Assembly (NCBI GenBank): GCA_029881435.1
Contig: JAOUMR010000007.1
Coordinates: 1-64,000 of the forward strand
Reading direction: 5' to 3'
DNA: 64,000 nt
Source of the DNA: Nitrospira sp.
Lineage (GTDB): Bacteria; Nitrospirota; Nitrospiria; Nitrospirales; Nitrospiraceae
Positions 1 to 15,327 of this stretch are shown here, in pieces. Positions within the stretch are counted from its first letter, which is position 1; each line of letters begins with the position of its first letter. The notes under the pieces are model-generated. The model had not been told where the DNA came from. It searched no databases and saw only the letters and a list, made by a program, of their open reading frames with translations. The position numbers and the translations under genes were made by a program.

Positions 1-119
1 TTTTGCGTTACGCAACGCTTGAATGGAGAGCCGGATGCGCTGAGAGGTGCACGTCCGGTTCGGGGAGGAGAGACTGGGAGATAGTGCGACTACGCCCGGT
101 CTCTCACTCCACTCCCTAC
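1..119 (+). ncRNA. Group II intron 3' end (domain V, putative domain VI and 3' splice site); rest of intron lies left of the window
   Basis: 28-61 GAGCCGGATGCGCTGAGAGGTGCACGTCCGGTTC is a canonical 34-nt domain V: AGC triad, GAGA (GNRA) tetraloop, 2-nt CG bulge, paired arms. A GAGACTGGG/CCCGGTCTC hairpin follows (DVI-like), and the sequence ends CTAC (AY end) just before transposase coding sequence. Confidence 0.88.
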
Positions 120-579
120 AGGGGAAGGATGGTTGTATCTGGCAGGGATTAAAGATCTGTATACGTGTGAGGTAGTCGGGTATGCCATGGGGGCCCGGAT
201 GACGACGGACTTGGTGCGCCACGCCTTGGGGAACGCGGTCGGGGCGAAACGCCCACGCCCGGGCTTGATCCACCACTCCGACCGTGGCTCCCAATATTGT
301 GCCCACGACTATCAGGATCAGCTGCGGCAGTTCGGCATGATTCCCTCCATGAGCCGGAAGGGCAATTGCTATGACAACGCGCCGATGGAGAGTTTCTGGG
401 GGACACTGAAAAATGAGCTGGTGCACCATCGGCGATATAATACGCGGGAGCAGGCTCGGCGCGAGATTACGGAGTACATCGAGGTGTTCTACAACCGCCA
501 GCGGCGGCATTCCCGGCTGGGGAATCGCTCGCCTGCGGCATTTGCCCAACAGTGGGCCCGTCAACAGCCGACGGCGTGA
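120..579 (+). pseudogene. IS3-family transposase (OrfB, rve integrase core), 3' exon downstream of group II intron
   Basis: Frame reads (T)GEGWLYLAGIKDLYTCEVVGYAM...HHSDRGSQY...MSRKGNCYDNAPMESFWGTLKNE...YNRQRRHSRLGNRSPAAF, typical of the IS3 OrfB C-terminal catalytic domain. The N-terminal part is absent from the window. Confidence 0.9.
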
Positions 580-593
580 GACTGTCATTCATG

Positions 594-609
594 GCGTCCA
601 CTCTTGACA
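594..609. repeat. Putative right terminal inverted repeat of the IS3-family element
   Basis: gcgtccactcttgaca shortly after the transposase stop; outward reading TGTCAAGAGTGGACGC begins TG as IS3-family ends do. The left end is not in the window. Confidence 0.4.
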
Positions 610-827
610 ACCGGGGTCACACGGGTTCACCATTACACAATATATCGTTGCGGAAGTAGCCGGCATGGATTCCTAGCGATGGTCGGAGAACACCTGGGTG
701 GTTTTGCCATCAAGACCAGTGAGTTACCTAGTTCTTCTCCTTATACGTTTTTTCTATACTTGGAACTCAAGTTATTCTTACGCGCGTATCGACTTCGTAG
801 GGGCAACATCTAAGAAGGAGGCACACT

Positions 828-12967: not shown

Positions 12968-13588
12968 CTATGCAATCAGATCGGCAGGTAAGAACGCGAG
13001 CACGGTTCGGACACGCTTCACCGCTTCCGAATCGTACACCAGGAGGTTACGAACAGCCGCTTCATACTGTGCTCGATTCGCGAAATTAAGCGCCTTAGCA
13101 ATGGCATCGAGCGCGGGCGATTCTCGTATTGGATACCTCTGGAGAACACCGACGAAGTCGGATGCGTTGATCAACGCCTCGATACGCGCCGCCTCATCTT
13201 GAGCACACTTCGCGAAGTCGATTTCAGCAGTACGTTTGCCGCCCGTTGCTACCTCACCTTTCTTCGGTAGAAGAGAAAAGACCTGAGCGCGCTGCTGCGA
13301 GTAGTCGTCCATCCAGCGTGCATTCGCTTGCCGATCATGGTGAAACACATTCAGCTCATAGTCTGCACGCTGTTTGCCGGTGAACTCTGGCGATCCAGAT
13401 CGAAACCAAGTTTGGCGGTGGGCCGTCATTCTCCGGGTCTTATTGTTGTTTGCCGATGCAAAAGCCTGCATAAGGCTCGATTTGCCGGTGCCGTTTGCAC
13501 CAAGGATGAAAAGCATCTGTCCAGCGTCTACCGTCAGCGCTATAGCGCCTTCCGGCTTGCCGGTAGGGATCGACAACGAGAATGACAT
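12968..13588 (-). pseudogene. AAA family ATPase, N-terminal fragment
   Basis: Walker A GANGTGKSSLMQAF near the N-terminus, but the ORF stops after 206 aa with no recognisable Walker B/signature. Confidence 0.6.
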
Positions 13589-13806
13589 GTTAGATATCCA
13601 TCTCCATCTGGTGTACTCCCTCTATGAAGCCCTCCTCGCCGAACAATGTTTAGACGGTCTGTATAATCTCGCAGAGGCAGCCTTTGCCGTGTCTGCCTAT
13701 CCCGGGAGGCGGACACTGGGTATCTGCCCTAACCAATTGATTTGGCATCAGTTGCGATCCAACAACGGTTCCAGGTTGCCGTGTTATACAGACTGGATAA
13801 GACCGA

Positions 13807-13956
13807 TTATAGCCCATCGATTGGACTCCTCACCCCATGGCCGCAGTTGTTCAGCACATGGGTGTAAATCATCGTCGTGCTGACGCCCTTGTGACCGAGT
13901 AATTCCTGAACTGTTCGAATATCTGAACCGCTCTTGAGTAGGTGCGTAGCAAACGA
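13807..13956 (-). pseudogene. Tyrosine recombinase (IntI/XerC-like integrase) C-terminal remnant
   Basis: Reverse complement translates [49 protein letters not shown], with catalytic LGH and IYTH motifs. Upstream frame has a stop and no N-terminal domains. Confidence 0.85.
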
Positions 13957-14166
13957 ATATCAGAACGCAAACAGGGGCGGCAAATTCTTGCGCCGAGCCT
14001 GTAGTACTGTCAAGTAGAACGCACCTATACCCAGCCTCCTGCTATTCGGCAACCTGCCTCTTTCACTTCAGCGCATCGGCAAACCATTCACCGTTTCCTG
14101 CGCACGGCGGGCAGCATACACAAGGCAGTTCATTTGACGGAACTCAACCAATCGATGTATTATAAC

Positions 14167-14182
14167 GACCAGAATTCTGGTC
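14167..14182. promoter_or_regulatory. Perfect 16-bp palindrome, putative TA autoregulatory operator
   Basis: GACCAGAATTCTGGTC, beside TATTATAAC (-10-like), 20 bp upstream of the antitoxin ATG. Confidence 0.65.
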
Positions 14183-14201
14183 TTTTATACACGAGGTCTA
14201 C

Positions 14202-14498
14202 ATGGCAAGAACCTTGTCGTTATCGGAAGTCAAAACCCGCCTGCCTGAACTCGTGGCGGGGGTACAAGAGCGTGAGGAGGAGGTCATCGTCACGAAGAAT
14301 GGCCGTCCGGCTGCCATTTTGATGAATATCGATGAATACACACGCCTCAAAGAGACCTTGGATGTCCTGAGCGATCCGGGACTCATGAACCAGATTGCTG
14401 AAAGCCGAGCCTTTTACAAAACGAAACGTAAAGGGCTGTCGTTTGAAGACGTGTTCGGCGAGCCTCTCACGCCCGTCAAGAAGCGGCGCACGGCGTGA
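14202..14498 (+). CDS. Phd/YefM-family antitoxin
   Basis: LSEVKTRLPELVAGVQEREEEVIVTKNGRPAAILMNIDEYTRLKETL. Confidence 0.9.
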   Translation: MARTLSLSEVKTRLPELVAGVQEREEEVIVTKNGRPAAILMNIDEYTRLKETLDVLSDPGLMNQIAESRAFYKTKRKGLSFEDVFGEPLTPVKKRRTA

Positions 14499-14791
14499 CT
14501 CCCTTCCGGCCGGACATCCCTCCGCATGTGGCGGACGTAATCCGTTCGCTCCATCCTGATCTCAAGGCACTGATCAAGTCGGCCATTCGTGCAATTGCCG
14601 CCAATCCTGAATGCGGAGAACCGCTCAAGCGGGAACTCGATGGGTTACGCAAGTATCGCGTTCGTCGGTTTCGCATCGTCTATGCTGTTCATCAGAAAAC
14701 ACGAGTTATTGGCCTGATGGCCGTGGGCCACCGTCGAACTGTGTATTATGATGAGCTGACGGAGCGGATTCGTCGAAAGACCAGAGGATAG
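14495..14791 (+). CDS. RelE/ParE-family toxin
   Basis: Start overlaps antitoxin stop; ALIKSAIRAIAANPECGEPLKRELDGLRKYRVRRFRIVYAV...VGHRRTVYYD. Confidence 0.9.
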   Translation: MTPFRPDIPPHVADVIRSLHPDLKALIKSAIRAIAANPECGEPLKRELDGLRKYRVRRFRIVYAVHQKTRVIGLMAVGHRRTVYYDELTERIRRKTRG

Positions 14792-15028
14792 CGATTTGTC
14801 AGTCGACTGCCTCAGCATCTCACTAATAAGTTCGCACACCCACGATTCACCCGCTACCCAACAAAACACCACCTCGAGTACCCGACCACAACAGAGCAGA
14901 GGATCTAGACCAGGCTGCGGTCCTGTTGGAAAGCGGGCCTTAGGAGCGTCCTCCATGTCTACCACTCGACACCGGGCAACAATAAGGATTAGGATTAGGC
15001 TGAGGTACACATCTACACGAGGAAGCCA

Positions 15029-15130
15029 ATGCCTGGAATGTTTGGCAAAAATCCACCGCTCATGCTGATCGCTATTGGGATTGTTGTGGTAGCGATTGTG
15101 GTGTTCGCGCTGATGACAGCAGGTTATTAG
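15029..15130 (+). CDS. Small single-pass membrane protein (33 aa), MPGMFGKNPPLMLIAIGIVVVAIVVFALMTAGY
   Basis: ACGAGGA Shine-Dalgarno-like site upstream of ATG; continuous hydrophobic helix; below the ORF-track length cutoff. Confidence 0.5.
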   Translation: MPGMFGKNPPLMLIAIGIVVVAIVVFALMTAGY

Positions 15131-15327
15131 GCGGATCAGCCGACAATGAGCAATTATTCGGGCCTCATACCTGGAAGACTTATGGTCATGCTGTTTCAGC
15201 GTCAGCACTGTCAATCCAATACTATGCAGCCCACGGCCTCGGCGACTCACGCTGTTGCCTTGACTCCCCAGCCATCTCACCTATAAGTTTCCTCTGCAAC
15301 GCTTACCTGTTGTTCAAAGGAACCTCA

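Follow-up and report, generated by a model that had tools for sequence, protein, structure and literature searches.

The 3' end of an E.c.I4-related group II intron within an IS3-family transposase gene of Nitrospira

Introns known from insertion sequences and the Nitrospira locus

The closest described system to the locus reported here is E.c.I4, a group II intron of Escherichia coli that homes into IS3-like transposases, with 15 copies listed in strain IAI39 and six in strain 55989 (PMC3522654). E.c.I4 is of bacterial class A and occurs in E. coli and Shigella within IS629, IS911, ISEc16 and ISEc31; its class A ORF is included in a study of ORFs that lack an endonuclease domain (PMC3552965). 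When we used an E. coli sequence of the E.c.I4 type as query, we found 15 places in IAI39 and six in 55989, and in the one copy examined per strain the insertion codon is shared, reading CGDITY/IW in IAI39 and VADFTY/VS in 55989. The paper on E.c.I4 also cites RmInt1 of Sinorhizobium meliloti as a group II intron that targets insertion sequences (reference 44 in PMC3522654). In the IStrons, a self-splicing group I intron is tied to an insertion sequence (PMC4227781). There the group I ribozyme is fused to the element and the whole element splices out, whereas at the Nitrospira locus a group II intron interrupts the transposase gene of the IS. With RmInt1 the locus shares a group II intron that has insertion sequences as its targets; RmInt1 and the E.c.I4-like introns differ both in intron class and in the IS family that they enter.

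The locus lies at the left end of the window, the 64,000-nt stretch of Nitrospira DNA analysed here (G000:C206:1-64000). The sequence-only reading of this DNA had proposed a group II intron nested inside an IS3-family transposase gene, and the proposal is borne out by an Rfam match, by the OrfB exon that follows the intron end and by relatives in which the exons join in frame. We consider it highly probable (roughly 0.93) that the window opens with the 3' end of a mobile, E.c.I4-related group II intron that retrohomed into an IS3-family OrfB gene at a fixed position, and that splicing at 112/113 is needed to produce a complete transposase. The nested arrangement of an intron in an IS3 element is itself already known from E. 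coli E.c.I4 (PMC3522654).

As in E.c.I4, the target is an IS3-family transposase entered at the same codon (DITY, or DFTY in 55989). The RT-maturase of the Nitrospira genome G058 is 65.5% identical to the IAI39 copy over 504 aa and carries only the RVT_1 and GIIM domains, a domain search of this representative of the relatives' intron ORFs having found no endonuclease domain; relatedness is judged on the identity and domains of the G058 protein. The shared codon and this degree of RT identity thus make the finding a Nitrospira member of the E.c.I4 kind. Over the last 112 intron nucleotides, the window shares ~83% identity with members of the E.c.I4 lineage from Klebsiella and E. coli, and intron size is similar (2270 nt in E.c.I4, 2286 nt in Nitrospira). 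The Nitrospira introns differ from E.c.I4 in their host, in their start (GTACG rather than GTGTG), in residing in other IS3 elements and in forming a cluster of their own, with RT identities of ~83-95% within it. A literature search on group II introns and Nitrospira, of incomplete coverage, found no report of such an arrangement by title.

The interrupted element and its relatives

On the forward strand of the window, positions 1-112 are the 3'-terminal 112 nt of the intron, corresponding to about 2175-2286 of the 2286-nt intron of G058 and comprising the end of domain IV, domain V and domain VI. The full Rfam model Intron_gpII (RF00029) matches at 26-112 with 61.6 bits (E 1.1e-9; gathering score 40), and the predicted fold of the same segment has a z score of -6.2, with none of 200 shuffled sequences equally stable. 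Both the match and the fold uphold the earlier assignment of the catalytic domain V hairpin to 28-61. Domain VI occupies 64-110, where GGAGGAGAGACTGGG is predicted to pair with CCCGGTCTCTC-A106-CTCC, leaving A106 as the single bulge between a long helix and the CTCC pairs, at the seventh base from the end of the intron, AC at 111-112. The DVI-like hairpin with an unpaired A that had been read from the letters therefore stands as a hairpin, whereas its bulge is A106 in the fold and not A111. Of the hallmarks of group II introns, the window shows domains V and VI, a bulged A near the 3' end and an AY terminus.

From position 113 the frame continues as TGEGWLYLAGIKDLY of an IS3-family OrfB, with no stop until 577, so that the second exon spans 113-579 on the same strand and ends with TGA at 577-579. 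Its translation matches rve (E 8.6e-19), rve_2 and rve_3 as well as NF033516 transpos_IS3 (203.5 bits), which confirms that the exon is the in-frame IS3 OrfB continuation it had been taken for. It encodes the C-terminal portion of the DDE domain, in which 35 residues separate the second Asp from the Glu (D-35-E). The IS does not end at 609, as first supposed, but runs 10 nt further to 619, its right terminal repeat occupying 598-619 (+) and ending in GGGGTCA; the same terminus, with one to four mismatches, is found in intron-bearing and intron-free relatives. The nearest intron-free relatives of exon 2 are Nitrospira MAGs, 83-93% identical, which read across the insertion site as TDITYVPT-EGW, and none of the 15 relatives scanned gave a group II intron match. 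The site lies just past what we take to be the first Asp of the DDE triad, as in the IS3 and retroviral integrase folds.

We searched 175 genomes of the family with the first 240 bases of the window. Matches occur somewhere in 48 of them, mostly to the OrfB part only; the match runs unbroken over intron and OrfB in a further six genomes (G053, G058, G088, G111, G118 and G152), and the same intron lies in different IS hosts in another six (G019, G038, G040, G070, G136 and G153). The junction shared with six genomes of the same family or genus, together with the Nitrospira origin of the nearest OrfB relatives, is the basis on which the analysis assigned the window to Nitrospira. The full intron of these relatives is ~2.29 kb (~2286 nt), starts with GTACG and encodes a 512-aa RT-maturase with YADD, matching RVT_1, GIIM and, above cut-off, TIGR04416. 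The intron 5' end, the RT-maturase ORF and the in-frame 5' exon, for which the first reading had looked to sequence further left, are thus present in relatives, where the intron starts with GTACG/GTGTG, the ORF has YADD and GIIM, and exon 1 ends in DITY plus one base. In-silico removal of the intron from complete or near-complete copies in G058, G118, G152, G040, G019, G038 and G136 leaves the exons joined in frame, after DITY in each. In G058 the joined sequence reads TDITY-MPT-TEGWLYLAGIKDL with the frame open, and the joined products of G040, G019, G136 and G058 are each scored as an IS3-family transposase. Intron-bearing insertion sequences with both ends (TGTGCTAGG...GGGGTCA) are present in G058 and G118 as complete units of ~3.56 kb, flanked by 3-bp repeats (TCC and ATA, respectively); these repeats are compatible with the intron arriving before or after IS insertion.

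The intron and the elements that carry it have diverged to very different degrees. Over its 112 nt, the intron end in the window shows 100% identity to that of G118, in which the intron is full length, while the two copies of exon 2 share only 75%; in comparisons with G040, G019, G038 and G136 the corresponding figures are 93-96% for the intron end and only ~60% for exon 2. Identity among the Nitrospira copies is 91-97% over the initial 600 nt of the intron and 58-83% over the exons. Near-identical intron ends beside divergent second exons imply that movement of the intron is not tied to that of the IS. The codon it enters is always the same, and this one site is common to unrelated IS3 hosts.

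One copy in G053, a one-contig assembly, joins exons from different IS3 subgroups (L136, G053:C1:1334000-1353000, intron at 12975-15261). Its exon 1 shares 83% identity with the G038 exon but only 63% with that of G058, while for exon 2 the values are 82% with G058 and 63% with G038; the joined frame is open at the junction and the RT frame is interrupted. The simplest reading, suggested by this pattern of identities, is recombination between two intron copies residing in different IS hosts. A second intron copy in G053 (L136, 3921-5277) carries ~1.2 kb inserted within domain V, with ~6 bp repeated on both sides. In G038, two copies (L146 and L147) each hold a ~1.26-kb insertion with an IS3-family element on the opposite strand, at differing intron positions, and thereby comprise three layers of nested mobile elements.

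Position 1 of the window is also position 1 of the 64,914-nt contig C206, and the assembly has no sequence to its left. The 5' part of the intron and OrfB exon 1 are therefore missing from the assembly, in line with the earlier view that the 5' parts of both elements lie outside the window. The contigs of the same genome yielded nothing usable for exon 1 or the intron body. Elsewhere in the genome, group II introns occupy at least four loci, on contigs C147, C193, C172 and C80 (L008, L009, L010 and L005); those of C147 and C193 are complete, share 82% identity and match RF02012. All four were rejected as the missing part, being of other types. Contig C180, which ends in an OrfB near the equivalent site, was not counted: it is 28% identical and has no intron sequence at its edge.

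With the first ~2170 intron nucleotides and exon 1 absent, truncation of the window copy is conceivable, as is an exon 1 derived from another IS. It might then be a dead remnant, a 5'-truncated intron piece beside a 3' fragment of a transposase gene, with no splicing or function left. Only 112 intron nucleotides are present, the rest being on no other contig, and broken copies do exist among relatives (815 nt in G152, interrupted RT ORFs in G088 and G053), so that G152 and G053 offer precedents. We nevertheless regard a remnant as unlikely, though it is the alternative that deserves most weight. The break is a contig edge and not a join to foreign sequence; domain V, domain VI, the splice site, OrfB exon 2 and the right end of the IS are all intact; and the 112 nt match the full-length intron of G118 without a difference. 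In addition, two contigs of G153 (L143 and L144) start at nearly the same point in the 3' region of the intron with 139 bases that are 100% identical, as expected for repeat-induced assembly breaks. This suggests that assemblies break at repeated introns, and the same may have happened at the left edge of the window. The copy in this genome is probably full length and may splice.

Position of the splice junction

The sequence-only reading had placed the AY end of the intron at 118-119, with the junction at 119/120 and A111 as the branch point. The stretch ACTCCCTAC does resemble a group II 3' end, and CCCTAC also occurs near the ends of two other introns in the same genome. However, the Rfam model stops at 112, and the codons at 112-120 (CTC CCT ACA) encode an OrfB-like Leu-Pro-Thr, comparable to the xPT of intron-free relatives, one of which (L019) shows ...TATCTCCCCACA immediately ahead of the matched region. 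In complete intron-bearing copies the 5' exon ends in TDITY plus one base, and the bases directly after it are GTACGCCCAGCC in the Nitrospira copies and GTGTGCCCGGAG in those of Klebsiella and E. coli. Since exon 1 of the relatives stops one base into a codon, exon 2 must supply the other two, the first of which is base 113 of the window; the relatives' OrfB frame fits only this start, 7 nt from the one first given. Where the intron resides in other IS hosts, the match to the window stops at 113-116 in nearly all cases, the 93-96% intron identity to G040, G019, G038 and G136 extending to the AC at 111-112 (+). A junction at 119/120 is accordingly very improbable.

A chance or misassembled junction of a hairpin with a transposase fragment, which the position at a contig end might have suggested, is refuted by the recurrence of the same junction in the six further genomes of the family, at 79-87% identity over it, and by its occurrence in Klebsiella and E. 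coli, again at this codon.

Proposed target recognition and probable dependence on splicing

The E.c.I4-related intron would insert by retrohoming after the T-D-I-T-Y codons and one further base, just past the first catalytic Asp. Its RNA may find this site by base pairing, a candidate EBS1 (TGTANG) with CNTAYN and a candidate EBS2 (ATGTC) with GAYAT, and would be copied by the intron's own RT-maturase; such pairing and copying would let the intron spread among copies and subgroups of IS3 elements. The candidates emerged when 13 introns were scanned, without bias, over their first 480 nt for complements of each intron's own 5' exon. TGTANG ranked first for IBS1 (-6 to -1), with at least five of six pairs in all 13 introns of the relatives, and ATGTC ranked first for IBS2 (-13 to -9), with at least four of five pairs, again in 13 of 13. 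A seven-base IBS1 brings a different stretch to first rank, and for this reason EBS1 is assigned only as a candidate. In predicted folds the candidate EBS1 is mostly unpaired, and the accessibility of the candidate EBS2 is ambiguous.

Both candidate guides place a G at the wobble position of a codon: that of TGTANG faces the third base (C/T) of the Tyr codon, and that of ATGTC faces the third base (C/T) of the Asp codon. Both alternatives are in free use among IS3 relatives, of which nearly all lack an intron at the site, with GAC in 45 and GAT in 24 for Asp, and TAT in 34 and TAC in 35 for Tyr. We tentatively propose, at somewhat less than even odds, that these guide G's let the intron read the near-invariant DITY protein motif whatever the codon, that a single lineage could thereby colonise unrelated IS3 subgroups across phyla, and that recombination between introns might shuffle in-frame transposase chimeras such as that of G053.

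The position of the intron has implications for the IS that carries it. Because the first Asp is encoded by exon 1 and the second Asp and Glu by exon 2, a single polypeptide with all three catalytic residues needs splicing, and a transcript spliced at 112/113 would encode the complete transposase. From this anatomy, production of the transposase, and with it transposition of the IS, probably depends on splicing of the intron.

With this finding, the range of the E.c.I4 type of IS3-homing intron reaches beyond enterobacteria to a nitrite-oxidising genus, Nitrospira. In several unrelated IS3 subgroups the fixed site is formed by codons of the DDE catalytic motif, which offers a simple explanation for the wide host range of the intron. 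The exon combination in G053 suggests, further, that the intron may serve as a bridge for recombination between genes for transposases.
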